A stretch of 64,000 nucleotides of DNA from Citricoccus sp. SGAir0253 (GTDB lineage Bacteria > Actinomycetota > Actinomycetes > Actinomycetales > Micrococcaceae), in contig NZ_CP039424.1 of assembly GCF_005877055.1 (NCBI RefSeq), positions 558,001 to 622,000 of the forward strand, read 5' to 3'. Positions within the stretch are counted from its first letter, which is position 1. Every line of letters starts with the position of its first letter. Positions 47,579 through 59,527 of the stretch are shown piece after piece. Made by a program: the position numbers and the translations under genes. The notes under the pieces were generated by a model. The model ran no database searches. It saw nothing but the letters and a program-made list of their open reading frames with translations, and was not told the DNA's origin.

Positions 47579-47866
47579 ATGGCCGGAGAGCCACAGCCCG
47601 ACGACGCCATCCGCGACACCGGTGCCACCGACCGGCGCCTGACCGAGCAGCCCGACCTCGGGGTCACGGGCGCCGGGAACCAGGCCGGCGAGGCGCCCCG
47701 GGACGACTGGGCGGACGGCGAGCCCAGCGAGGAGCAGGCCCGCTCGGCCAATCCGGACCCGGCCGAGGAGGACATCCCGGGCCTGGAGGAGGGCGGGGGC
47801 GTGCCCCCGGGGGAGACACCGCCCGCCGGCGGCTCCCAGAGCGGGGACCAGGGCCACCAGGAGTAG
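47579..47866 (+). CDS. DUF6480-like small hydrophilic protein
   Basis: This 95-residue acidic, hydrophilic protein contains [20 protein letters not shown] then GETPPAGG, which matches the core of the actinobacterial DUF6480 family ([22 protein letters not shown]). The usual C-terminal membrane helix of that family is missing here; the protein ends in [11 protein letters not shown]. The stop-containing 3' end is duplicated in tandem as a 45-bp repeat, so the normal 3' end could have been altered. The start ATG follows GACCACC with no clear ribosome-binding site. Function unknown. Confidence 0.65.
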
Positions 47867-47920
47867 CCCGGCGGCGGCTCCCAGAGCGGGGACCAGGGCC
47901 ACCAGGAGTAGCCCGGCGGC
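47831..47920 (+). repeat. Perfect 45-bp tandem duplication
   Basis: Copy 1 (47831-47875) and copy 2 (47876-47920) are identical. Each contains the last 11 codons and stop of the DUF6480-like gene plus 9 bp. Exact identity implies a recent event. It lies about 75 bp before the gene interrupted by the integrative element. Confidence 0.9.
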
Positions 47921-47982
47921 GCCGCGTTACGCCCGTAGCGTGCGCCGGCGTCATCCGCTGGAAGGCCCGGTCGGCTTCCGGC

Positions 47983-47988
47983 CACAAT
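47983..47988 (+). promoter_or_regulatory. CACAAT promoter-like element of interrupted gene
   Basis: CACAAT sits 8 bp before the ATG at 47996. The same hexamer precedes the replacement start at 57446 by a similar distance, suggesting a conserved -10 for a leaderless or near-leaderless message. Confidence 0.45.
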
Positions 47989-47995
47989 GGAGCGC

Positions 47996-48181
47996 ATGAG
48001 CAGCCCCGAAGACCAGCCGGTCAGCACGCCCTCCGCCACGGCCACCGCCGCCCCCTCGCCCCGCGCCGCCTCGCGCGTGCGCGCCTCCGAGCTGTCCGGC
48101 CGCACGTGGCTGAACACCGGCGGGACCCCGCTGGACCTGGCGGCCCTGCGCGGCAAGATCGTCATCCTGGACTTCTGCTAG
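47996..48181 (+). pseudogene. Severed 5' end of thioredoxin-fold/NHL-repeat gene
   Basis: This 61-residue remnant reads up to RASELSGRTWLNTGG, PLDLAALRGKIVILDF and then hits TAG two bases beyond the integration core. It aligns with residues 11-42 of the complete gene at 57446 (22 of 32 identical: RASEL, GR, WLNTGG, LRG, ILDF). It lacks the catalytic WSFCCINC and everything after. Joined across the element to 57577 it reads on in frame as WSFCC. It is therefore the original chromosomal N-terminus, cut off by insertion; an ATG nine bases upstream is an alternative start. Confidence 0.9.
48164..48177 (+). repeat. Left attachment core (attL)
   Basis: ATCCTGGACTTCTG is shared exactly with 57563-57576. 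To its left the sequence is chromosomal coding DNA of the severed gene; to its right it changes to CTAGTTCTGAG, which adds a stop codon. It encodes the Ile-Leu-Asp-Phe of the thioredoxin fold just ahead of the catalytic Trp. Confidence 0.88.
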
Positions 48182-48220
48182 TTCTGAGTCAAAGCATCAA
48201 CTTGGGACTAGACTCGCCGC

Positions 48221-49789
48221 ATGGCATCGTCTCAAGTCACAGCGTCGCCGGATCGGTGCGCCGCTATCTACGTCCGCCGGTCCTCTCGAAAGGATCTCGG
48301 GCTCAACCGATCACTAATGGAACAGGAGGCCGATTGTCGGGCCCTGGCCGAGCGGTTCGGCCTCGACGTCGTCCGGCTGTACTCGGAGCGCGAGGGGACC
48401 GGGGCCTCCAATCGGTCGCGGAAGGCGCGGCCCCAGTGGGAGGCGGCCCTCGCCGACCTGGACAAGGGCGGGGACTTTCATACGCTCATCGTCTGGAGCC
48501 TGGACCGGGCCGACCGCCGAGGGGCGGACACACTCGCCGGGCTCCTCACGCGGCACGCGGCCAGCGGGCGCCGCATCATTGCTTGCGACGGGACGGACAC
48601 GTCGGACGAGCGCCAGCGGCTATCAATCATCATCCGGGGCGAGATCGCCCGGGAGGAGGCCGAGAACACGGCCAAGCGCGTCGCCCGGACGAAAGCGACG
48701 AGGCGCGCGGATGGGCGTTGGCTCGGCGGGCGGCCGCCCTATGGGCTCCAAATCGTCGACGGCCACGTCGAACCGGACCCGGAGACCGCGCCTATCGCCC
48801 GGAGGATCGCCGAGGAGGCCCTCGCGGGGCGGAGCCTATGGGAGATCGTCCAGGGACTAAACGCGGACGGCATAGCGACGGCCAGGGGCGGCCAGTGGCG
48901 GACTAACACGCTCAGTCAGCTAGTCCGGTCGCCCGCTTTCGCCGGGCTCCAGTCGGTCCGCGAGAGGACCGCCTCGGGCGGCTGGCGGGCCGTCGCCGAG
49001 GTCTACCGGGATCCCGAGACGCGCGACCCGGTCACGATCGGCGAGGGGATCATCACGCCGACCGAGCGGGCGCTCATCATGCGGCGGCTCGCCGACCGAT
49101 CCGCCGAGCGCGCCCGGGGCCAGGTACGCGGCCGCAAGGGCTCCAAAGCGCTCCTCGGGCCGATCGCGCGCTGTCGGACTTGCGGGAGGCGCTCGGCGCT
49201 CTCCTCGGGCGGGACGACGGGCTCCTACCGTTGCGCCAGCCTGGCGGCCGGGAACCCATGCGAGCGGCCATTCAGCGCGCCACGGGGCGGCCTGGACGAC
49301 TACGTCACCGGGCGGTTTCTGTCCTACCTGGCGACCCTGGAGCCCGACGACGAGCGGCTCGTCGCAATTGCCGAGCGCTGGACCGCTCACGTCGACCCGG
49401 CCAGCGACGTCGAGCGGCGCGCGGCTCAGGCGGCCCTCGACGCGGTCGACGCCGACCTGGCCCGCGCCCGGCGCCTGGCCGTGGCCGGGATCTTGACCGA
49501 GGACGAGGCCGCCGTCGAGCTCAGGCGGCTACGGTCGCACCGGGCCAAGGCCGCCGAGGAGCTCGCGGCCCTGCCGACCGGGACGCTCGACGTCGCCCCG
49601 CTCTTGGACCTGGCACAGTCCCGCGAGGCATGGGACGCGCTCCCGCTCGACGAGCGCCGGGAGCTCCTCCCGCTGGCGATTGACGAGGTCCGCGTCGGCC
49701 CCGCCAAGGGGCGGGGCTACAGGTTCACCCCAGAGGAGCGCGTGACGTTCGTGTGGGCGGGCGAGGAGCTCGAACGGACTAACAACTAG
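48221..49789 (+). CDS. Large serine recombinase (integrase)
   Basis: This 522-residue recombinase has the N-terminal resolvase catalytic domain with the nucleophile in YVRRS (Ser about 21), SLDRADRRG in the active-site region, IRGEIAREEAENTAKRVARTKATRR on the long helix, and the recombinase domain beginning about residue 155 (GGRPPYGLQIVDG, ADGIATARGGQWRTNTLSQLVRSPAFAG). A zinc ribbon follows (CRTCG with CASLAAGNPC), then a coiled-coil segment about 395-450. These proteins integrate circular DNA site-specifically. It lies 44 bp from attL, typical of self-integrating elements. TAGACT ends 6 bp before the ATG, so the message may be leaderless. Confidence 0.95.
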   Translation: MASSQVTASPDRCAAIYVRRSSRKDLGLNRSLMEQEADCRALAERFGLDVVRLYSEREGTGASNRSRKARPQWEAALADLDKGGDFHTLIVWSLDRADRRGADTLAGLLTRHAASGRRIIACDGTDTSDERQRLSIIIRGEIAREEAENTAKRVARTKATRRADGRWLGGRPPYGLQIVDGHVEPDPETAPIARRIAEEALAGRSLWEIVQGLNADGIATARGGQWRTNTLSQLVRSPAFAGLQSVRERTASGGWRAVAEVYRDPETRDPVTIGEGIITPTERALIMRRLADRSAERARGQVRGRKGSKALLGPIARCRTCGRRSALSSGGTTGSYRCASLAAGNPCERPFSAPRGGLDDYVTGRFLSYLATLEPDDERLVAIAERWTAHVDPASDVERRAAQAALDAVDADLARARRLAVAGILTEDEAAVELRRLRSHRAKAAEELAALPTGTLDVAPLLDLAQSREAWDALPLDERRELLPLAIDEVRVGPAKGRGYRFTPEERVTFVWAGEELERTNN

Positions 49790-49855
49790 AGAAGCGCCAC
49801 GTAAAGCCCCCGGCGCAAGGAAGTTTGCGTGCAAGTTTGCAGTGCGCTTAGAGGC

Positions 49856-50449
49856 TCATGGAGGCGTCGACCGGCTCCTAGGCTCCCGTCCAATGTCTTC
49901 GTGCTCCCAGAGGTATCCGGCGAGATCGGTTATCCAATGCGTACCGCGCGCATCGCGGAAATAGAGCTTTAACCGAGGCCGGTCGCGGAAGTGATCCTGA
50001 TTGCGCGTGCCCCACGTAACTTCACCGTTAGGAGGGATCGTCCGCAAATCGTCTAACGGGCGGGCGTAGTAAGTGACCTCTCCGAAGAATATCTGGACAT
50101 GCGAAATCGGGCTCGGCCCATGGTTGACGATCTTCAGGTCGAGTCCAACCTCGTTTGTCGGCTCACCGAACTCGTCTCGCAGGGCAACAGCTGTAAAGGT
50201 GAAACTGACTTGGCGGGCGAGTTCCTGCCGCCGCTCGGCGGCCTCCTCCTCCTGGATGCGGCGGAACCGATTACGGTCCTCGGCGGCTTCCCGCCGCTCC
50301 CTCGCGGCGTCGGCGCGCTCGCGCGCGTTGATCCGGTTGGCGATCAGTGCCGCACCGACAGCTCCGACGGTGCCCACGGCGGCGAACCACTCGGGTACCG
50401 TTCCCCAATCCCATGCCCCGACTGCCGTCGCCAAGCTCTCCCAGGCCAT
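49856..50449 (-). CDS. Unknown protein: N-terminal membrane helix, coiled coil, beta domain
   Basis: This 197-residue protein has a hydrophobic segment at about residues 17-40 (PEWFAAVGTVGAVGAALIAN), a strongly charged helical coiled coil (about 42-82, rich in Arg and Glu), and a C-terminal beta-rich domain with LDLKIVNHGPSPISHVQIFFGEVTY and LYFRDARGTHWITD. This arrangement resembles small membrane-anchored hypothetical proteins common in actinobacterial genomes and phages. It is convergent with the integrase. I recognise no named function. Its A/T content is slightly above that of the host genes. Confidence 0.7.
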   Translation of the reverse strand: MAWESLATAVGAWDWGTVPEWFAAVGTVGAVGAALIANRINARERADAARERREAAEDRNRFRRIQEEEAAERRQELARQVSFTFTAVALRDEFGEPTNEVGLDLKIVNHGPSPISHVQIFFGEVTYYARPLDDLRTIPPNGEVTWGTRNQDHFRDRPRLKLYFRDARGTHWITDLAGYLWEHEDIGREPRSRSTPP

Positions 50450-50517
50450 GCCGCCAGCCTAGGCGGCATGAGATCGGCCCCGCTCATATTTGCGGCATGG
50501 GCGGGGCCCGATTCGCC

Positions 50518-50904
50518 TCAGGAGATCGCAGCGGCCTCAGCACGCTTGCGGGTGCGGCGCTGGCGGGCACCGGCGGCCTCGCATTCTCGACAGCGCGGCT
50601 GTGCGCCGTCGGGAGTGAGCGGGTGGGAGCCATAGGCGCTTAGAGGCTTGCGGTCTCCGCATCCTGTACATACGCGGCCGCCCGTGCGATACCGCCAGCG
50701 CCAGCGGCTCGCGGCACCCTGCAATGCCTCGGCGAGCTCCTCGCGGTCAAGGCCTTCCGCGCGGAGTGCCTCCTCGTAGTCCGCCAGGAGCGCCGCCGGA
50801 GGCTCACGCGGGGGCAGGAGCGGGGCCTGGCGCCTCTCCAGGGACGGAAAGTCCAGGGCGCCGTCCCCGAGCGCGTCGGAGGCGCGGATCACGGGGCGGG
50901 TCAC
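50518..50904 (-). CDS. Zinc-ribbon protein of the element
   Basis: This 128-residue protein has a helical N-terminal half and a C-terminal zinc-ribbon-like motif CTGCGDRKPLSAYGSHPLTP then CRECEAAGARQRRTRKRAE (two CxxC pairs, 25 residues apart), followed by a basic tail. The CxxC...KP...RCxxC pattern also occurs in another protein of this element (53586-54074) and in phage proteins near HNH or endonuclease VII genes, though no catalytic HNH residues are present here. The GTG start overlaps the stop of the upstream small gene. Confidence 0.7.
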   Translation of the reverse strand: MTRPVIRASDALGDGALDFPSLERRQAPLLPPREPPAALLADYEEALRAEGLDREELAEALQGAASRWRWRYRTGGRVCTGCGDRKPLSAYGSHPLTPDGAQPRCRECEAAGARQRRTRKRAEAAAIS

Positions 50905-51110
50905 AGGCCGATCTCCAGGGCGTCGAGGTCATCGACCGTGAAGCCGTGGACGGCCTTGGTGACAGCCTCGACGATCTCGGGCGAGGAGTCGCCCTCGGCG
51001 GCGCTGGCGGCGGTGGCCTCGACGGAGGCGCGGAAGGCGCGGGCGTCCTCGACGAAGGCGAAGCCGGGCAGGGTGAGGCCGGGGAGAGTGGCGCGGACGA
51101 TGGTGAGCAT
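50901..51110 (-). CDS. Small protein of unknown function
   Basis: This 69-residue acidic protein (MLTIVRATLPGLTLPGFAFV, then EDARAFRASVEATAASAAEG and a C-terminal DDLDALEIGL) has a good ribosome-binding site (GAAAGGA) and overlaps the next gene by 4 bp, which supports it as real. It has no recognisable motif. It belongs to the leftward cluster with the terminase-small-like gene. Confidence 0.6.
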   Translation of the reverse strand: MLTIVRATLPGLTLPGFAFVEDARAFRASVEATAASAAEGDSSPEIVEAVTKAVHGFTVDDLDALEIGL

Positions 51111-51137
51111 GGCGGGGATCCTTTCGGGGAGAGGGTG

Positions 51138-51446
51138 TCAGGCGGTATGGAGGGCGGCGGTCACGTCATGGCCGCCGAGGCGCTGAATCGTCCATTGACG
51201 ATGCAGGCCGGAGACCTCGCGACACAGGGCGCGGAACGCCACGGCCGCGAGGCGGTGATGAGACAGGTCCGGCCCGGACGCCTCGGTGTCGTCGGCGTAG
51301 TCCAGGGCGGCGGACCACGCGGACGCCGGGGTCCAGCCTCCGCGAGGCGGACACGGAGCGAATGGCGGGAGCGGGCCGGAGGGGTCGCGGACCTCGATCT
51401 CGGCGGCGGTGGCCGGGCCGGTCCCGGCGCGGGACTGGCGCGCCAT
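51138..51446 (-). CDS. Small helical protein of unknown function
   Basis: This 102-residue protein has a Pro-rich N-terminal third and a helical remainder (SAALDYADDTEASGPDLSHH, RLAAVAFRALCREVSGLHRQ). The ATG overlaps the stop of the terminase-small-like gene by one base (TGATG), so it is translationally coupled to it. No family recognised. Confidence 0.6.
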   Translation of the reverse strand: MARQSRAGTGPATAAEIEVRDPSGPLPPFAPCPPRGGWTPASAWSAALDYADDTEASGPDLSHHRLAAVAFRALCREVSGLHRQWTIQRLGGHDVTAALHTA

Positions 51447-51805
51447 CAGCGACGGCTCCAACGCTTAGAGGCCAGCGCCGCCCCAGCCCGCGAGGCGCCG
51501 GACTGGTTCAGGCCGACGCCAAACGACTTGAGCGCGGCGATCGCGGCCGCTCGCGCCTGACGGGCCTCGGCGATCAGCGGGTTAGCGACCGGCTGGCCCT
51601 TGTAGCCCGTGGTCATCAGGCCGACGCGGTCGACCTCGGCGCTCATGGCATCGGCGGAGGAGATCAGAGTACAGGCCTCCCAGAGAGCGCCCTCGGCGGC
51701 GGAGGACATGGCGGGGTTTTCCGCGTCGACGTTGACGTAAAGATCGCGGGCGGACTGTGACCAGGACTCGGGGAGATCGGCGTAGGGGTCAGTTTCGGTG
51801 GTCAC
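51446..51805 (-). CDS. P27-family terminase small subunit-like protein
   Basis: This 119-residue protein has the core of P27-type small terminase subunits: a helical region with SQSARDLYVNVDAENPAMSS and ALWEACTLISSADAMSAEVD, then the typical GLMTTGYKGQPVANPLIAEAR followed by a helix ending in LKSFGVG. In tailed phages this subunit recognises packaging sites and recruits the large subunit. No large subunit gene is present in the element, so packaging would depend on a helper phage or the gene has another role. AGGAGGCTCCC precedes the ATG. It heads the leftward cluster. Confidence 0.75.
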   Translation of the reverse strand: MTTETDPYADLPESWSQSARDLYVNVDAENPAMSSAAEGALWEACTLISSADAMSAEVDRVGLMTTGYKGQPVANPLIAEARQARAAAIAALKSFGVGLNQSGASRAGAALASKRWSRR

Positions 51806-52483
51806 GGGAGCCTCCTAGGTGGCAGTGGTGAAGGTGTGGGCCGCCCGAGGGGCGGGAGGGCTGTGTGCATCGGGCCCGCCGAGCTATGCCCTGCCGGCAT
51901 TGGGCAGAGGGGCCGGGGGGAGGGGGTACCCAGGGTCTCAGTCGGTGACGACGAGGACGTCCTCGACCCGCTGGCGCCCATCGGGGGACATGAGCGGGGC
52001 GACGTGGGCCAGGGCCTCGCGCGACTCTCCGCCGCGACGCGCCGACGACACGCCGCTGCGCGGTGAGATTCCCGTTCCGTTCCGCGCTGTGCACGATCGG
52101 TGCTGCGGCGGTCGACACCTGTGGACGGGCCGGGGGGCGGGTGCGCCGATCCGCGTGGTTCCGGCGTACTGGGCGCACGGGCCCGGACACGTCCGTACAC
52201 AGCGCCTGTGGACGGCATGGGGAAACGCGCGGGCGCGGAGGGGGAACAGGATCTTGTGGTTGGTGCATGCGCAGACCACTAGATGTAGTATTGGACTCGT
52301 GAGTAGCCAACGCACGAAAGCCCCGTTCCGATGACGGGGTCACCGAAAGTGGGGCTCTACGCTTGTAAATTTGTTCTTGGTCGGAACGAGTACAAACGTA
52401 GTGCAAAGGAGCGGGATCCACAAACCCTCTCCCCCCTCTTCGGTCGTGTGAGGTGCCACACCGACTGAAAGGCCGTGACCATC
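51806..52483 (+). other. Gene-free region with structured leader of the cargo operon
   Basis: I support no gene in this 680-bp stretch; the open frames overlap each other and have no family match or clear start. The left two thirds are GC-rich. From about 52280 the DNA turns A/T-rich: TAGTAT (52286-52291) could be a -10. Two hairpins follow: CCCCGT with ACGGGG (52321-52326, 52334-52339), and CTACGCTTGTA with TACAAACGTAG (52357-52367, 52391-52401, one mismatch, 23-nt loop). A third pairing, CGTTCCG (52324-52330) with CGGAACG (52382-52388), could compete with the first. This looks like a regulatory leader or small RNA ahead of the YjzC-like gene. Confidence 0.5.
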
Positions 52484-52678
52484 ATGGCGAAGAACACCTA
52501 CAGGCCAGGCGAGTACGCCCCTGCCTCCGCACAGTACGAAATCGTGGGTCCGCGCGGCGGACGCACCGGAGAAGAACGGACGGTCGTCCGGGGAACCACC
52601 CTGCCTCCCACGGGAAAGCCTGGTCAGTCCTACGTGATTGCAGACCGGACTCGTAATAAGTCGGGGCGAGGCAATTGA
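52484..52678 (+). CDS. YjzC-like small protein (cargo)
   Basis: This 64-residue protein reads YRPGEYAPASAQYEIVGPRG then GRTGEERTVVRGTTLPPTGK and ends YVIADRTRNKSGRGN. The PGE-AP-SxQYxxxGPRGGRTGxE-TVVxGxxxPPT pattern resembles YjzC-like small proteins, found in Gram-positives and mobile elements with no proven function. GAAAGG lies about 15 bp before the ATG. Its stop overlaps the TTG start of the next gene, so the two form a coupled pair. Codon use is less GC-rich than the flanking chromosome. Confidence 0.72.
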   Translation: MAKNTYRPGEYAPASAQYEIVGPRGGRTGEERTVVRGTTLPPTGKPGQSYVIADRTRNKSGRGN

Positions 52679-53655
52679 GCGGCGATGGGCAGCCCAAGGG
52701 GCTGCACGGGTTCCGCGCTGTTCCCGCTGCCATCCTGCGGGAGATTCATGAGCTCAAGGGATCGGACTTTCGGATCGGGCATCGTTGGACGGTCTCGGAA
52801 GAAGAGTTGCGGATGGGTCGATTGGCCCACATCGGGGTCGGCATCGGCCCTGACGGCATCACCTACGAGACTCCGCTAGTGCCCAGCCCGTCCAAGAAAT
52901 GGGCGAAGTGGAACGCGGACGGCAGGGTCATCAAGCGACCCGACCTTCCCAAGCAAGAGATCCACTGGTCCACGACCTCACCGAGATACGGAGATCCCGC
53001 GAGGGGCTATCACACGCAACCGCATTCTCGGTTGGTGATCCACAAGCAGGTTGTTCACGGCAAGAATTTCGCGCTAAACATCACCCACAAGGCCACGAAA
53101 GACGAAAAGTTCGTTGTCGCGTGCGAAGTGGATGTGGTGTTTCCTTGGGCAACTGGCGCAGACTCCTCCGACTTGCTCATGGCCGTTTCCCTGGTCGGAG
53201 AATGTGTGGGCTCTCCGCGGGTCTACCCCTCTGCCCAGTCGCTCAGCGATTGGACGGCGACACAGGCTGTTGGTTGGGAACTCTTGCCCGTGAAGCATGG
53301 CGGTTCCCTTCCTCAGTTCAGTGAGGTCGCCGCCAACTTCAAACGACGGACTGGTCGAGACCTTCCGGACACGTATGAAGAGCGCTATACGGCAATGGCA
53401 GGGTTGCAGGCAGACAAGGTTTGGACCGGTGTCTCCGGCTTCCACCGGTACATGGCCTTCGATTTCGGTACCGCAGTCGTCCTGGAGAATTTCTCCTACG
53501 GCAATGCGGCGTACGTGATGTTCGACGATTGGCGCGAACTGAGCCAGCGAAGCCGTCCGGACTTGCTGGCAGACCAGAACGCCAACTACGTCCGCATCGT
53601 CCATCGGAATGGCTGGGCGAAGCGCGTCCGGGCGGAGATCGAAGCCACCCGCTGA
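52675..53655 (+). CDS. Unknown 326-residue protein paired with YjzC-like gene
   Basis: I do not recognise this protein. It has no signal peptide or membrane helix. Notable stretches are FRIGHRWTVSEEELRMGRLA, HIGVGIGPDGITYETPLVPS, a Lys/His/Asn-rich middle (HKQVVHGKNFALNITHKATK), and a C-terminal part with FDFGTAVVLENFSYGNAAYV and NANYVRIVHRNGWAKRVRAE. The start is TTG, overlapping the previous stop (ATTGA). Composition is clearly less GC-rich than neighbours, with A- and T-ending codons throughout, indicating recent transfer. As element cargo in a two-gene unit it could be a defence or toxin-type effector, a guess from context only. Confidence 0.78.
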   Translation: MSGDGQPKGLHGFRAVPAAILREIHELKGSDFRIGHRWTVSEEELRMGRLAHIGVGIGPDGITYETPLVPSPSKKWAKWNADGRVIKRPDLPKQEIHWSTTSPRYGDPARGYHTQPHSRLVIHKQVVHGKNFALNITHKATKDEKFVVACEVDVVFPWATGADSSDLLMAVSLVGECVGSPRVYPSAQSLSDWTATQAVGWELLPVKHGGSLPQFSEVAANFKRRTGRDLPDTYEERYTAMAGLQADKVWTGVSGFHRYMAFDFGTAVVLENFSYGNAAYVMFDDWRELSQRSRPDLLADQNANYVRIVHRNGWAKRVRAEIEATR

Positions 53656-54074
53656 CACATGCGGCCCCTCGCGGTTTCTACCGTGGGGGGCCGTAGTGTC
53701 CTACGCACGGCGGCCGTAGGCCGGTCGCGGGTAGAGCAGGCCGGTCGCGGGTAGAGCGTGGACGGCAGGACGTCGGTGCAGTCGTGGCACCTCGACGCGA
53801 TCCGGGTCTCGCGGCCGGGGTCTGCCGGGAATGCTTTGGCCGGGCGGAGCGCCGTGCAGACCAGGCACCGGTGCCTGGCGCCGATCAGGCGCCGGGCGCG
53901 GGCGTCCAGTGCGCGCCCGGCGGTGGTCATGGCCTCGGCTTCGGTCGCGCCGTTAGCCAGTGCGGCGGAGTGGATCCTGGCGCCGAGGGCGTCCTCGCGG
54001 GGGTCTAGCGGCGGCCGCAGCCGGGGGTCCTCGGCGAGCTCGTCGGCGGGGATCGCGGACGCTGTTGCAGTCAT
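53586..54074 (-). CDS. Zinc-ribbon protein with frameshifted, extended C-terminus
   Basis: This 162-residue reading has a helical N-terminal half (DALGARIHSAALANGATEAE) and a zinc-ribbon motif CLVCTALRPAKAFPADPGRE then CHDCTD, two CxxC pairs like those of the 50518-50904 protein. AAGGAGG precedes the ATG. Just after the ribbon, a 20-bp tandem duplication (53718-53757) shifts the frame. With one copy the protein would end YPRPAYGRRA at a stop at 53701; as it stands, the frame runs on for about 45 unrelated residues and overlaps the convergent cargo gene. The functional core is probably intact. Role unknown. Confidence 0.68.
   Translation of the reverse strand: MTATASAIPADELAEDPRLRPPLDPREDALGARIHSAALANGATEAEAMTTAGRALDARARRLIGARHRCLVCTALRPAKAFPADPGRETRIASRCHDCTDVLPSTLYPRPACSTRDRPTAAVRRTLRPPTVETARGRMCQRVASISARTRFAQPFRWTMRT
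53662..53693. terminator. Bidirectional hairpin between convergent genes
   Basis: CGGCCCC and GGGGCCG form the outer stem, with CGGT and ACCG inside around TTCT. It lies 7 bp after the cargo stop and, before the neighbouring gene was frameshifted, would have lain just past that gene's stop too. Confidence 0.6.
53718..53757. repeat. 20-bp tandem duplication causing a frameshift
   Basis: AGGCCGGTCGCGGGTAGAGC occurs twice without a gap (53718-53737, 53738-53757). Twenty is not a multiple of three, so the extra copy shifts the leftward zinc-ribbon gene out of its original frame. Confidence 0.9.
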
Positions 54075-54192
54075 GGGGCGCCTCCTTGGCGTCAGGCAGT
54101 GGAAACGCGAGGAGGCGGCCGCCAGCGTGGGCGACCGCCTCCAGGCGGCGGAAGGGGAGCCCTGGAGAGAGGGCCAGGGGTCGCCGATGTGG

Positions 54193-54981
54193 TCAGGCGG
54201 TCTCCTCGGCCGGTCGGGCGGGCATCGTGTAAACGGCCGTGCGCGCCTTGCCGACGCGGCGGCGTGGGCCGAGGATCTCGTCGGCGACGGCGTAGAACAC
54301 TCGGCGGCGCGGGACGCGATACTCGTCGCCTTGGGGCGTCTTGTCGCCGAAATCACGGTTGTCGTTGATCTCGTCGACAGCACGTGCGAACAGGTCCGCC
54401 GCGTTGACGGCATCGCCTGGCGCCGGGGCGTCGTCGTACTCGCGCCATTCGGCCAGCCATGCTCGGATGCTGTCGGCCTCGATCCGGGCGGCCTTGTCGC
54501 GGGAGCGCTTGACGTACTCCGAGGGGGTCAGCGCCGGGCCGCGCTCGGCGGCCGGGCGGGGTGGGCGGTACGTGGGGAGCCGGACGCGGACGGCGCGGAC
54601 CACGGCCTCAACGTAGGCGCCGACGGTCCCGGCGTCGCCGTGGAGGACCAGGAGCCGGGCGTCGTGGTAGCGGTCGCCGGCCTCAGTGGGGCGGACCTCG
54701 GGCAGGGAGGCCAAGCTGGCGCGGATCTCGTCGGCCAGGCCCGCGAGCGGGACCGGCGTCGGGGCGGCGGTGGAGCCCTTGGCGCGGGCCAGGATGGCGG
54801 AGCCTTCGCGGTAGAGCTCGCGGTCGCCGGTCAGGTAAGGGAGCGCGTAGACCTCGGCGAGGCGCTTGGCCGAGGGCGTCTCCAGGTTGAGGCCGGAGTC
54901 CAGACGGACGCGGAATGGGCGGCCGTCGTCGGGGTCGCCGGTGCCGAGTCGGGCGAGAGTGGTGGCATGGGCGGGGATCAT
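54193..54981 (-). CDS. Element protein of unknown function
   Basis: This 262-residue, mostly helical protein has segments GRPFRVRLDSGLNLETPSAK, ADEIRASLASLPEVRPTEAG, SEYVKRSRDKAARIEADSIR, and a C-terminal RVPRRRVFYAVADEILGPRR RVGKARTAVY that could be a helix-turn-helix-like basic region. I cannot assign a family. Its position next to the iteron-like inverted repeat region (55075-55180) makes a replication or DNA-binding role worth testing. GAAAGGA precedes the ATG. It is followed by the zinc-ribbon gene in the same direction. Confidence 0.68.
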   Translation of the reverse strand: MIPAHATTLARLGTGDPDDGRPFRVRLDSGLNLETPSAKRLAEVYALPYLTGDRELYREGSAILARAKGSTAAPTPVPLAGLADEIRASLASLPEVRPTEAGDRYHDARLLVLHGDAGTVGAYVEAVVRAVRVRLPTYRPPRPAAERGPALTPSEYVKRSRDKAARIEADSIRAWLAEWREYDDAPAPGDAVNAADLFARAVDEINDNRDFGDKTPQGDEYRVPRRRVFYAVADEILGPRRRVGKARTAVYTMPARPAEETA

Positions 54982-55258
54982 GGGCGGGTGTCCTTTCAGG
55001 GGTCGCCGCAGACGCGGCGGTAGCGCCGGGGTAGGCCCGGTGCTGAGGGAGAACAGAAGGGGCGGGGCGACGGGAACGTGATAAGTGAGGAAGTAACGTT
55101 CCCCTGCCCTTCTCTTGTGGAGAGAGAGAACTCTCGATAAAAGAACGGAGAAGGAAGGAAGTAGGCGCCCTTATCACGTTGCAGTCACCTTGCGCCGGTC
55201 AGGGCGCCACGTCGGCGTCCCCGTCGGTGGCGTCGGCCCGCGTGGGCGGGCGGTGCGG
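54982..55258. other. A/T-richer control region with long inverted repeat
   Basis: No gene is supportable here. AACGTGATAAG (55075-55085) and CTTATCACGTT (55170-55180) are perfect inverse copies 84 bp apart. GGGAACG and CGTTCCC (55072-55078, 55096-55102) form a second pair inside. Between them is a purine-rich tract (GAGAGAGAGAACTC, then AAGAACGGAGAAGGAAGGAA). This could be an origin, a regulator binding region, or the promoter of the leftward gene at 54981. Confidence 0.5.
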
Positions 55259-55504
55259 TCACTGGCGCCGGTCGGCGCGGCCGAGGTAGATCCCGGCGCG
55301 GTCCAGGAGGCGGTGAGTCTCGCGGTCCTCGGCGTCGACGTGGTCGCGGAGCTCGGCGAGGCAGTCGCGGAGCCCGGCCAGGGCCTCGCGGTGGCGCTGG
55401 CGGTGCCGCCGGGTCCGGCACGTGACGGAGCAGAACGCCCGTCGCGGTCCGGCGTCAGCGGCGAGGGGGTCGCCGCACTGGATACAGGATCGGCGCAGCT
55501 TCAC
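55259..55504 (-). CDS. Small zinc-finger protein
   Basis: This 81-residue protein has CIQCGDPLAADAGPRRAFCS VTCRTRRHRQRHRE, a treble-clef-like zinc motif (CxxC and CxxxC) with a basic helix, followed by a helical C-terminus. Similar small proteins occur in actinobacterial phages and elements. GAGGAG precedes the GTG start. The 10-bp CTCGGTAGAT (plus strand, 55515-55524) upstream also lies upstream of the capsid-like gene (56545-56554), suggesting a shared leader sequence. Confidence 0.7.
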   Translation of the reverse strand: MKLRRSCIQCGDPLAADAGPRRAFCSVTCRTRRHRQRHREALAGLRDCLAELRDHVDAEDRETHRLLDRAGIYLGRADRRQ

Positions 55505-55553
55505 GGCAACTCCTCTCGGTAGATAGTTCGGAACAGGTCAGGACCACGAGAAC

Positions 55554-55591
55554 GGCCCTCGTCCTCGACGCCGGAGCGGAGGGCGAGGGCC
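55554..55591 (-). terminator. Hairpin after capsid-like gene
   Basis: GGCCCTCG (55554-55561) and CGAGGGCC (55584-55591), with further pairing inside, form a strong stem about 65 bp past the capsid-like stop on the minus strand and 50 bp ahead of the zinc-finger gene. Confidence 0.6.
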
Positions 55592-55655
55592 AGTCCTCGG
55601 GAGGGGACACCTTATAGAGGGCCAGGACGCCCGGAAATGCCCACACCGGGACGGA

Positions 55656-56531
55656 TCAGAGCGCCGGGGCGGTGTCCACGCGGACGGCGCCGCCGTGAGC
55701 CACGAGGGTCACTGTGCCGTCCTCGGCGTCCACGGCAAGCGGCATCGGGGCCACCTTCACCAGAGACTCGACGATCGAGACCTCGGCGCCGACGCCCGGG
55801 TCGAAGTCCCGGATCTGGGTCAGGGCCCAGCCGTCGACCTTCACGGACGCGGCAGCGGTCGCGCCAGCCGGGACGGCCGGGGCGCGGACCACCACGGCGA
55901 ACGCGGCCGGGATGAACGCGGCCGCCTCAGCCGGGGCCAGACGGGTCGACTCGATAACCTCCAGGCCGCGCACCTTGCCGGAGTCGTCGAACGCGGCGGC
56001 GTCCAGCAGGTCGGCGTAGACGTCGGCGCCGACGGCGACCTTGATCGTCGCCTCGGCCGGGACGCCGTTGGAGCGCAGGACGCGGCGCATGGCGGTGACG
56101 ACCTTGGCCGGGTCGGCCGGGTCGTAGGTGATGGAGGCGGTGGCCGGGGTCGCCTGGATCGCGGCGGCGGCCTCGCGCTCGATGTGGGTCACGATCGCGC
56201 GGCACTGGGGCGCGAGGACCTGGGTGGAGAAGTCGCGCAGGTCCAGGGTGGTGTCCTGGACGGACAGGACGGTCTTGTTGTAGGCCAGGGTCTCCAGCTT
56301 GACCGGGATGGTCTGCTCGGCGATCTCGTCGGCGACGAGCTGGGTCGTCTTGTCGCTGGCGGCCTTGGTGCGGGCCACGACGGCGCCGCCGACGCGCACG
56401 TCGACGGTGGAGCCCTTACCGGCGGCGTAGTTCGCGGCCAGATCCAGGCGCATGTGCTGAGCCAGGTTCAGGTCCTGGCCGACGATCTCCGCGGCGACCT
56501 TGGCGGAGTCGGTGATAGCGAAAGTGCTCAT
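55656..56531 (-). CDS. P22-coat-protein-like major capsid protein
   Basis: This 291-residue protein has the layout of P22-type coat proteins of the HK97 fold: an N-terminal arm with VAAEIVGQDLNLAQHMRLDL, a region with GSTVDVRVGGAVVARTKA and IPVKLETLAYNKTVLSVQDT, the helix THIEREAAAAI, then VVTAMRRVLRSNGVP, VGADVYADLLDAAAF and a C-terminal immunoglobulin-like beta stretch (VKVDGWALTQIRDFDPGVGA). Such proteins assemble phage heads. No scaffold, portal, protease or decoration gene accompanies it. GAGTGAGG lies before the start MSTFAITD. It is one of the strongest indications that the element is phage-derived. Confidence 0.85.
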   Translation of the reverse strand: MSTFAITDSAKVAAEIVGQDLNLAQHMRLDLAANYAAGKGSTVDVRVGGAVVARTKAASDKTTQLVADEIAEQTIPVKLETLAYNKTVLSVQDTTLDLRDFSTQVLAPQCRAIVTHIEREAAAAIQATPATASITYDPADPAKVVTAMRRVLRSNGVPAEATIKVAVGADVYADLLDAAAFDDSGKVRGLEVIESTRLAPAEAAAFIPAAFAVVVRAPAVPAGATAAASVKVDGWALTQIRDFDPGVGAEVSIVESLVKVAPMPLAVDAEDGTVTLVAHGGAVRVDTAPAL

Positions 56532-57445
56532 AGGGTGTACCTCACTCGGTAGATGGGGATTGGATGTGGTGGGATCCAGTCCGTCGCGCTTGCGAGGCCA
56601 CCGGGGCACGGCTCTAGCCGGGGCGGGACCTTGGGGACGTGGAAGGGCCCGCCGCCGGAAGCTTGCCGGGGCGGGCGTGGGCGGCGCGCAGAGGCCGCCG
56701 GGGGGCGCCCGGAATGAGGACGCCGGGAGCGCTGGAGAAAGGCGCTCAGCGCGCCGGAGGGGCGCGGGCCTGTCCCCTCGGCGCCTTGGCCGGGGACGGA
56801 AGATGGGGGAGGGCCACGGCGGCGCCTGGCCGTCGTGGGCAGGGATAGACCGGCGCCCGACTACGACAACGGGCGCCGGTCCTGCACCTGGACACTGTCA
56901 CCTGATCCGACTATTCGCGTGAGGCGCCTAGGGCGGTAGCACTAGGACGCCTTGTGGGCCAGTAGTGGTTAACAGTGGAGCGGACGCCTGACGGCGCCCT
57001 ACCGGCGGGCTCTGGGCCGTGCCGGATCCTGGAATGTCTGGGCGGTTGGGATGACGCTGGGGCCCGACGCCGGAGTGCGGACGTGGGCCCCAGCGGCCGC
57101 CACCTTGGGCGGCCGTTCCCTGTGAAAGGACTCCCCTGCGGGGCGTCTCGCGGCAAGGCACCACCCTTGCCGCTCGTAATAAGAGAGGGCCTTGCTTTAG
57201 GACGCGGAGACGCCGAGGGCCGGGAGGGACGGTAGGGACGGTTAGGACCCTCCCCTATTCCTTATGTAGAGGCAGCTCTCTTTCGTACAAAGAATGAGCG
57301 GGGTGGCCCGAACGCGCCCTACCGTCCCCTTACGGCCCTCGGAGGGCGTTGGAGCTCCTCCCGCGTCCCGGACCAACGGGTAAGGCAGCGTCTCGCGGAG
57401 TAGCACGGTCACAACCCGAGGTCGACGAGAAGGCACAATGTTTAC
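56532..57445. other. Hairpin-rich gene-free right arm of the element
   Basis: I support no gene in these 914 bp. Perfect stems are frequent: GACCGGCGCCC with GGGCGCCGGTC (56848-56858, 56871-56881); CTGGGGCCC with GGGCCCCAG (57057-57065, 57085-57093); CGGCCGCC with GGCGGCCG (57094-57101, 57108-57115); CGGCAAGG with CCTTGCCG (57151-57158, 57165-57172); and a 12-bp pair GGGACGGTAGGG with CCCTACCGTCCC (57226-57237, 57317-57328). Such a cluster may be a packaging site, a replication origin, small RNAs, or insulation of the repaired gene from element transcription. Confidence 0.5.
57434..57439 (+). promoter_or_regulatory. Element-borne CACAAT promoter element of reconstituted gene
   Basis: CACAAT ends 6 bp before the ATG at 57446, as expected for a leaderless transcript, and repeats the element found ahead of the severed start (47983-47988). 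No convincing -35 is visible. Confidence 0.5.
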
Positions 57446-59527
57446 ATGGCTTCTCTCCAGCGTCCTCAGTCCCGCATCCGCGCCTCGGAGCTCGTCGGCC
57501 GAGCATGGCTCAACACTGGTGGCGAGGAACTCTCCCTGGAGTCGCTCCGGGGTCGTGTTTTGATCCTGGACTTCTGGTCCTTCTGCTGCATCAACTGCCT
57601 GCACGTCCTGGACGAGCTGCGCCCGCTCGAGGCCCAGTTCCACGACGTCCTGGTGACCGTCGGCGTGCACTCGCCGAAGTTCGACCACGAGGCGGACCCG
57701 GAGGCGCTCGCCGCCGCCGTGGAGCGCTACGACATCCAGCACCCCGTCCTCGACGACCCGCAGCTGACCACGTGGCAGGCCTACACGGCCCGCGCCTGGC
57801 CCACCCTCGTGGTCGTGGACCCGGAGGGGTACATCGCCGCCCACCTGTCCGGCGAGGGACACGTGGCCGGGCTGACCTCCCTCGTGGAGGAGCTCGTGGC
57901 CGAGCACGAGGCCAAGGGCACGCTGCACCGCGGGAACGGCCCCTACGTGCCCCCGGAGCCGGTCGCGCGGGACCTGAGGTTCCCCGGCAAGGCGATCGCC
58001 CTGGGCGCCCGCGGCACCGAGCCGGGGACCTTCCTCGTGGCGGACACCGGCCACCACCGGCTCGTGGAGCTCGGCGCGGACCTGGCCACCGTGGTGCGCA
58101 CCGTGGGCGGGGTCGGCGCGGAGGCGGCCGGCTCGGACCACGACGGCGGCGCGGGCCCCGCCGCGACGCCCGGCACCCGGGGCCTGGCCGACGGCGGCCC
58201 CCGGGAGGCGCTGTTCAACGAGCCCCAGGGGCTGGCCCTGCTGCCCGAGGACGTCGCGGCCGCGGTGGGCTACGACGTGGTCGTGGCCGACTCCGTCAAC
58301 CACCGGCTGCGCGGCGTCCGCCTGGCCGACGGCACCGTGACCACGGTGGCCGGCAACGGCGTGCAGCGGTTGATCGACCCCGAGCGCGCCCGCGCCGCGG
58401 CCGACCCGGATGCCGAGGAGACCGTCTCGCTCGAGCCCTTCGGCACCGACCCGCTGCAGACCTCGCTGTCCAGCCCGTGGGACGTGCTGTGGTCCACCGC
58501 CGAGGACACCCTCGTGGTGGCGATGGCCGGCACCCACCAGCTGTTCAGCTTCGACCCGCGCACCGGCGACCTGGCCGTCTACGCCGGCACCGGGCTGGAG
58601 GGCCTGGAGGACGGCGACCCGACCGTGGCCTGGTTCGCCCAGTCCTCCGGGCTGGCCGAGTCCGCCGACGGCACGCTCTGGGTCGCCGACTCGGAGTCCT
58701 CGGCGCTGCGCCGCGTCACCCCGGCCGGCCGTGACGCAGCGGAGGGCGCGCTGTCCCGCCGCGTGGAGTCCGCCGTCGGGACGGGGCTGTTCGACTTCGG
58801 CTTCCGCGACGGCGCCGCCGGGCAGGCCCGCTTCCAGCACCCCCTGGGCGTGGCCGCCCTGCCGGACGGCTCCGTCCTGGTGGCCGACACCTACAACGGG
58901 GCGATCCGCCGGTACGCGCCGGCCGGCGTCGCCGCCGACGGCCGCGAGACCGAGGCGGGCGTGTCCACCGTGGCGCGCGGGCTGAAGGAGCCCTCGGACG
59001 TGCTGTTCATCCCCGCCGGGCCGGAGGGCGGCGCCGCCTCGATCGTGGTGGTGGAGACCAACGCGCACCAGCTCGTGCGGCTGTCCGTGCCGGAGGAGTA
59101 CCTGCAGGTGGATGAGGGTGCCCTCCAGACCCACCGGCCGCGCACCGCGGTGGCCGCCGGCGAGCTCGAGCTCACGGTCGCCTTCGAGGCCCCGACCGGC
59201 CAGAAGCTGGACGACCGCTGGGGCGATCCCACGCAGCTGAAGATCTCCTCCTCCCCGGAGGAGCTGCTGCTGGCGGGGGAGGGCACCTCCACCGGCCTGG
59301 CCCGGACGCTGCGGATCAACCCGGACGTGGCCGAGGGCGTCCTGCACATCACCGCGCGGGCCGCCTCCTGCGACGGCGAGAAGGGCCAGCCCATCCCGGA
59401 CCACGCGGCCTGCCACCTGTACCAGCAGGACTGGGGCATCCCCGTCACGGTGCACGCCGGGGCGCCCGAGGACCCGCAGGTCGTCCCGGAGACCCGCCTG
59501 GACCTGGACCTGCGCGGGATACACTGA
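57446..59527 (+). CDS. Thioredoxin-fold/NHL-repeat protein, reconstituted by the element
   Basis: This 693-residue protein has a TlpA/thioredoxin-like N-terminal domain (about residues 10-160) with the active-site region WSFCCINCLHVLDELRPLE (CxxC, about 47-52) and an NHL-repeat beta-propeller C-terminal part (about 170-560: NEPQGLALLPED, VADSVNHRLRGVRLADG, SSPWDVLWSTAED, QHPLGVAALPDGSVLVADTY), then a beta-rich tail. Homologues are NHL repeat-containing thioredoxin proteins of uncertain function. The first 39 codons or so (57446-57562) come from the element, end in A or T far more often than the host part, and differ from the severed chromosomal copy; from 57577 on the sequence is chromosomal. 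Confidence 0.92.
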   Translation: MASLQRPQSRIRASELVGRAWLNTGGEELSLESLRGRVLILDFWSFCCINCLHVLDELRPLEAQFHDVLVTVGVHSPKFDHEADPEALAAAVERYDIQHPVLDDPQLTTWQAYTARAWPTLVVVDPEGYIAAHLSGEGHVAGLTSLVEELVAEHEAKGTLHRGNGPYVPPEPVARDLRFPGKAIALGARGTEPGTFLVADTGHHRLVELGADLATVVRTVGGVGAEAAGSDHDGGAGPAATPGTRGLADGGPREALFNEPQGLALLPEDVAAAVGYDVVVADSVNHRLRGVRLADGTVTTVAGNGVQRLIDPERARAAADPDAEETVSLEPFGTDPLQTSLSSPWDVLWSTAEDTLVVAMAGTHQLFSFDPRTGDLAVYAGTGLEGLEDGDPTVAWFAQSSGLAESADGTLWVADSESSALRRVTPAGRDAAEGALSRRVESAVGTGLFDFGFRDGAAGQARFQHPLGVAALPDGSVLVADTYNGAIRRYAPAGVAADGRETEAGVSTVARGLKEPSDVLFIPAGPEGGAASIVVVETNAHQLVRLSVPEEYLQVDEGALQTHRPRTAVAAGELELTVAFEAPTGQKLDDRWGDPTQLKISSSPEELLLAGEGTSTGLARTLRINPDVAEGVLHITARAASCDGEKGQPIPDHAACHLYQQDWGIPVTVHAGAPEDPQVVPETRLDLDLRGIH
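57563..57576 (+). repeat. Right attachment core (attR)
   Basis: ATCCTGGACTTCTG is identical to attL. Here it joins element DNA on the left (a substitute 5' coding end) to chromosomal coding DNA on the right (GTCCTTCTGCTGC, encoding the catalytic cysteines) in frame. Confidence 0.88.

Follow-up and report, generated by a model that had tools for sequence, protein, structure and literature searches.

An integrated element of 9,399 bp interrupts a conserved thioredoxin-like/NHL-repeat gene in the window, as we call the whole stretch of 64,000 nucleotides that was analysed, and judging from the sequence it very probably repairs this gene with an element-borne, in-frame 5' substitute that is kept as such. 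The window is part of a 3.3-Mb contig of an actinobacterial genome. The features concerned are the following, in window positions.

47983 to 47988, forward strand: CACAAT, a -10-like hexamer that precedes the native ATG by 7 nt (by eye; similar [GC]A[CG]AAT hexamers stand before congener starts).
47996 to 48181, forward strand: 5' end of the chromosomal thioredoxin/NHL gene, cut off by the insertion; 60 host codons up to F are followed by C and the stop TAG at 48179-48181 (nucleotide identity to six congeners 0.75-0.91 over 36 codons).
48164 to 48177, forward strand: attL core ATCCTGGACTTCTG, common to attR (junction comparison).
48178 to 57576, forward strand: integrated element, 9,399 bp (comparison of attL with attR, and congener genes).
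48221 to 49789, forward strand: serine integrase of 522 aa, co-directional with the host gene (PF00239, 1.3e-20; PF07508, 9.4e-13; phrog_95 integrase, 3.1e-70).
51446 to 51805, reverse strand: terminase small subunit-like protein (PF05119, 3.1e-6; phrog_1496, 1.7e-4).
55656 to 56531, reverse strand: major head (capsid) protein (phrog_283, 5.6e-22).
57434 to 57439, forward strand: CACAAT, a -10-like hexamer 6 nt 5' of the patch ATG and candidate leaderless promoter (sequence).
57446 to 57576, forward strand: coding patch, a substitute for the first 43 codons of the host gene whose end is the left arm of attP (homology, frame, drop in identity).
57446 to 59527, forward strand: rebuilt thioredoxin-like/NHL-repeat gene, 693 aa (Pfam NHL, Thioredoxin_8, AhpC-TSA).
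57563 to 57576, forward strand: attR core ATCCTGGACTTCTG (junction comparison).

The host gene is interrupted after the ILDF codons, immediately 5' of W-SFCCINC with the Cys motif. At the right end of the element an open frame starts with the ATG at 57446, reads MASLQRPQSRIRASELVGRAWLNTGGEELSLESLRGRVLILDF and passes in frame into WSFCCINCL... through 59527. The earlier note had claimed that a homologue of the severed start is fused in frame to the catalytic part at this end, and the translations bear this out; its figure of 22 identical residues among 32 (RASEL...ILDF) is correct by direct count, and over 36 codons patch and severed start agree at 24 (0.667). The fused protein recovered the severed fragment from its own genome with an E value of 6e-10. 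Because it did so, and because a second element has the same layout (see below), chance is excluded. A search of the same genome for a second full copy of the gene found none.

The N-terminal query had a match in 391 of 395 family genomes, a few of them weak; the four genomes without one are 65-82% complete. SOQ1, NHLRC2 and DipZ are solved relatives of the rebuilt protein, and the alignment begins at residue 16-20. A structure model of residues 1-204 was poor, with a mean pLDDT of 50; a strand was noted at 38-43. By eye, a sequence of some 45 bases occurs twice in tandem at the end of the preceding open reading frame (about 47828-47917), directly 5' of the severed host start.

The earlier note had taken the patch for a foreign copy, partly on account of its A/T-ending codons, of which it counted about 12 in 42 against almost none in the host copy. 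The recount gave 12 of 42 in the patch, 1 of 59 in the host remnant and 8 of 651 in the host catalytic part (Fisher p of 8e-5 for patch vs remnant and of 4e-11 for patch vs catalytic part). Among the element genes the integrase has 61 of 522 such codons, and seven genes range from 15/292 (capsid) to 55/198 (49856-50449), by which the patch sits at the A/T-rich end of element genes. Nucleotide identity to six of the seven congeners was 0.64-0.75 for the 36 patch codons, 0.75-0.91 for the severed start and 0.85-0.93 for the next 108 nt; G003 was omitted, its gene being divided over two contigs. The drop in identity at the patch alone, together with the codon endings, thus supports a foreign origin.

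When the rebuilt gene's initial 195 bases, which include some host sequence, were compared with the 395 family genomes, the best non-self match was the patched gene of Arthrobacter mobilis (183 bits). G511 was a near tie at 181 bits, and its genome is without an integrase match at E up to 1e-50. Against 54 rows the 36 patch codons were nearest to the A. mobilis patch (0.778), followed by G005 (0.750). Phage records gave no match to the patch at E up to 10 with the BLAST low-complexity filter on, and the core pattern had 0 occurrences in viral contigs. The source of the patch would be this gene's 5' end in a different actinobacterial host, with imprecise excision or recombination as the route.

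The integrase is of the large serine type, with resolvase catalytic and recombinase domains in one long protein and an adjoining att site. Searches with it gave 2 of 395 family genomes (E up to 1e-50) and 2 of 198 relatives, namely the window genome and A. mobilis, both of them patched. Of the phage and plasmid records 183 and 31 matched the integrase, all below 60% identity, and the viral contigs held two distant matches of 23-24%.

In A. mobilis E918 (G043; NZ_JAAZSQ010000010.1), which belongs to another genus, an element of 2,812 bp sits in the same gene at the same codon. Its integrase is 68% identical to that of the window and lies directly 3' of the host remnant; the integrase alone matched when proteins of the window element were tried against this element. 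The gene then resumes with a patch of its own, MTESVRSAYRVRASELVGRGWLNTGGKDLSLEDLRGKVLILDF, followed by WTFCC (patch start L029:10546). The earlier note had suggested looking for the patch in related elements at the same site, and the sole relative found, that of A. mobilis, carries one, an outcome in favour of the note's reading. Identity to seven picked congeners is 0.67-0.73 for the A. mobilis patch and 0.89-0.97 for the adjoining 108 nt. The host remnant resembles the native, Shine-Dalgarno-led starts of these seven congeners; it has lost 36 nt and carries substitutions, but the patch is not decayed. In A. mobilis the N-terminal query had a single match. When genome contigs were scanned with two peptide patterns, A. 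mobilis alone was confirmed (1 of 76 stretches).

If the patch served the host as coding sequence, it should bear the marks of selection on a protein. Compared with each other, the two patches were 0.86, 0.86 and 0.61 identical at first, second and third codon positions; dN was 0.18 and dS 0.55, compared to 0.27 and 0.91 for the integrases. Among 52 host copies 20 positions are at least 95% conserved; of these residues the window patch keeps 19, with K to R as the exception, and the A. mobilis patch all 20. The 52 copies comprise the congeners, the A. mobilis congeners and the best patch matches, a non-random set that favours similarity, and they stand for 50 distinct genomes as G109 and G550 occur twice each. 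The patch therefore looks selected, a foreign, element-borne substitute with a purifying pattern. The further claim that host function is preserved gains support at the level of sequence from the conserved residues, from the single full copy in the genome and from the decay in A. mobilis of the remnant but not of the patch.

An accidental fossil would likewise be foreign: the patch is clearly unlike the resident host gene, and the imprecise pick-up of a gene piece from a former host, the likely source anyway, could have left an in-frame fusion without function. We consider this unlikely given that the frame is open, that 19 and 20 of the 20 conserved residues are kept in two elements, that dN/dS between the patches is about 0.33 and that the displaced A. 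mobilis remnant has decayed. Alternatively, the patch might be constrained as an arm of attP alone, its coding capacity following from the resemblance between attP and attB. attP consists of the patch end and the element start, and two observations fit such a constraint. The 45 nt on the core side are more alike in the two patches (0.822) than the 63 nt on the N side (0.746), and the window attP contains an imperfect dyad that is centred on the core and takes in the shared bases (14 of 23 pairs; equalled by 0.011 of shuffles). In A. mobilis no such dyad was found when it was looked for. Serine integrase sites are short, about 50 bp, whereas homology, frame and start codon here span about 130 nt, and conserved residues distant from the core are kept (RASEL, WLNTG). 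We thus regard a constraint by attP alone as very unlikely.

That two versions of the gene were misjoined in an assembly or strain chimera has a negligible probability. Beyond the unusual look of the locus nothing speaks for it, while A. mobilis E918 shows this layout on an independent contig and the cores match at both junctions. Moreover, among the seven congeners the gene is one match in five and two pieces of one open frame in G006. The apparently split gene of G003 was rejected as a further case, its two contigs overlapping by 33 nt. We also searched the 54 family genomes with at least two N-terminal matches for split genes; the window genome aside, pairs on the same contig were never closer than about 98 kb. 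The second matches were at most 54% identical, except at contig ends (G003, 89%; G662, its own best match, 63%). Such a search would miss old, decayed remnants like that of A. mobilis.

A further question is whether the two elements inherited the patch from one ancestor. The comparison spans 36 codons and two elements. On the core side GTTTTGATC is present in both patches and in none of the 52 host copies, and in the 45 nt there the identity of 0.822 between the patches compares with 0.733 for the window patch vs any host. The remaining 63 nt on the N side show the opposite order, with 0.746 between the patches and 0.794 for the window patch vs the best host. The A. mobilis patch is closer to seven host rows from six genomes (best G682, 0.852) than to the window patch (0.778). 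At third positions the window patch shares slightly more with G005 (0.639) than with the patch of A. mobilis (0.611). On balance we lean towards a single patch inherited by both elements from an ancestor. The alternative remains that the patch was acquired or exchanged repeatedly, with convergence at the recombination site. The start of the G682 host copy (L041, G682:C181:116168), which has no adjoining element, is 0.85 identical to the A. mobilis patch; its upstream neighbour is the usual one, and the integrase had no match beside it. From its sequence, a host copy like that of G682 is a candidate for the kind of donor that gave rise to the A. mobilis patch.

The earlier note had credited the element with a substitute promoter as well as a 5' coding end. 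The coding end stands; the candidate promoter is a hexamer 6 nt before the ATG. A scan for the sigma-70 consensus found no -35/-10 pair before the patch and none at the native start either. Control of the gene by the element, which the earlier note had put forward as a possibility, is a conjecture. The observation of CACAAT before both starts was confirmed at 57434-57439 and 47983-47988. A hexamer of the form.A.AAT occurs 6-7 nt upstream of 3 of the 983 ATGs in the window (both strands), the patch and host starts being among the three. In both patches the ATG is preceded, at 6 or 7 nt, by an xAxAAT hexamer, CACAAT in the window and GAGAAT in A. mobilis. The conservation of the host CACAAT may partly reflect that of a start codon, because the hexamer overlaps an in-frame upstream ATG (47987). 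Leaderless transcripts are common in actinobacteria. The spacing of the hexamers suits such transcripts, and a promoter of the leaderless type before the patch is plausible on these sequence grounds. With its patch the A. mobilis gene would acquire a start of a different kind, the native one there being of another type.

The integrase start is preceded by TAGACT, 6 nt 5' of its ATG, and TAnnnT is found at this distance in both elements against a background of 13 in 3,574 ATG or GTG codons. No terminator-like site was found in 47800-48400. Within the patch, just before the att core (57534-57552), there is a weak terminator-like hairpin followed by a T-rich stretch; in 56800-57700 one was found vs 0.6 expected.

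We propose the following course of events. The large serine integrase would insert the small element between the ILDF and W codons of the conserved thioredoxin/NHL-repeat gene. The insertion detaches the first 60 codons together with the native start region, and the right end of the element supplies a start codon and 43 in-frame codons. As the left arm of attP is formed by the patch end, patch and target become fused on integration. Transcription would then begin at the element-borne, leaderless-type promoter just before 57446. The patch would be retained as insertions that kill this gene would be costly.

In the circular form the patch frame would stop just past the core, with ILDFC* in the window (44 residues) and ILDF* in A. 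mobilis (43 residues). The integrase start follows this stop after 39 nt in the window and 9 nt in A. mobilis, in the same direction. This arrangement led us to a tentative idea, which we hold to be possible but on the doubtful side, that integration is an exchange of promoters: in the circle the patch promoter would transcribe this short peptide frame and then the integrase, whereas on integration it would pass to the host gene and the integrase would come under the host's native promoter. The patch end would then serve for recombination and as coding sequence, and it would also act as a switch by which integrase expression is lowered or changed in timing once the element has inserted.

Two elements from two genera inserted at the same codon in the 5' part of a conserved gene, each with an in-frame substitute 5' coding end, belong with the elements that replace the 5' end of their target. 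As far as excerpts of PMC8409611 and PMC4482086 describe them, islands and prophages at dusA, e.g. IMEVchUSA3, insert into the 5' part of a conserved gene and carry a divergent in-frame 5' copy (in IMEVchUSA3 61% over 35 residues), and the new promoter that the islands bring was shown by lacZ fusion. Their integrases are tyrosine integrases, and the new 5' end restores a needed beta strand of the fold (excerpts of PMC4482086). To judge by these excerpts, both systems enter a conserved gene in its 5' part and replace what they cut off by a divergent in-frame copy; in contrast, the dusA elements have tyrosine recombinases, Proteobacteria as hosts, a tRNA-modification gene as target and a tested promoter, while the present system has a serine integrase, actinobacterial hosts and a candidate promoter. 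The window element lies outside the DAI family, its integrase being of the serine type (PF00239/PF07508). The integrase of SXT/R391 is of the tyrosine type. This ICE inserts at prfC and replaces the 5' end and promoter of its target (excerpts of PMC8409611 and PMC4344509). As described there, it differs in being conjugative, in its gammaproteobacterial hosts and in its target gene. Islands in tRNA genes restore their target by carrying the displaced part (excerpts of PMC4383910). Their target is an RNA gene, without a start codon or reading frame to replace.

The principle is therefore known from SXT/prfC and dusA, and new here are the serine recombinase, the actinobacterial hosts and the satellite-like cargo. 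Among the open-licence papers listed in searches, no title or opening of an abstract revealed a serine-recombinase case of 5' replacement. Target repair through exchange of the start region and N-terminus is extended here from tyrosine-recombinase elements of Proteobacteria to an actinobacterial, satellite-like serine-integrase element, whose site lies a few codons 5' of a catalytic Cys motif. This suggests that the strategy arose more than once and that the attP site of a serine integrase can double as coding sequence, subject to two constraints. A split gene next to a serine integrase should be inspected for a patch before it is labelled a pseudogene.

In the cargo of the window element, the capsid protein matches 105 phage records, the best at 39.5% identity (Arthrobacter phage Lego and others); in viral contigs nine stretches fit its pattern and none was confirmed. 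Portal, large terminase and tail families were absent from the nine element proteins scanned, and the whole element had no match among phages by megablast. In content the element would appear phage-satellite-like from its sequence. As a small element with capsid and small-terminase-like genes it may be likened, by gene content alone, to what is described in part of the accounts of cf-PICIs and the Streptomyces Mulch/Flayer satellites. A related element in G346, from another family of the order (L037, G346:C2:36000-55999, reverse strand), has an integrase of 37%, a capsid protein of 33% and a 54193-type protein of 34% identity, and it splits a gene which we take to be a TadA-type ATPase. No patch was visible beside its integrase in the sequence inspected. 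In this single comparison the patch would seem to go with integrase and site and not with the cargo.

The non-coding DNA of the window element contains inverted repeats that flank A/T-rich loops, at 57226-57254 / 57300-57328 and at 55059-55085 / 55170-55196; they are possible origin, packaging or regulator sites. A similar layout of inverted repeats was seen by eye 5' of the A. mobilis patch, at about 10338-10455 of L029.
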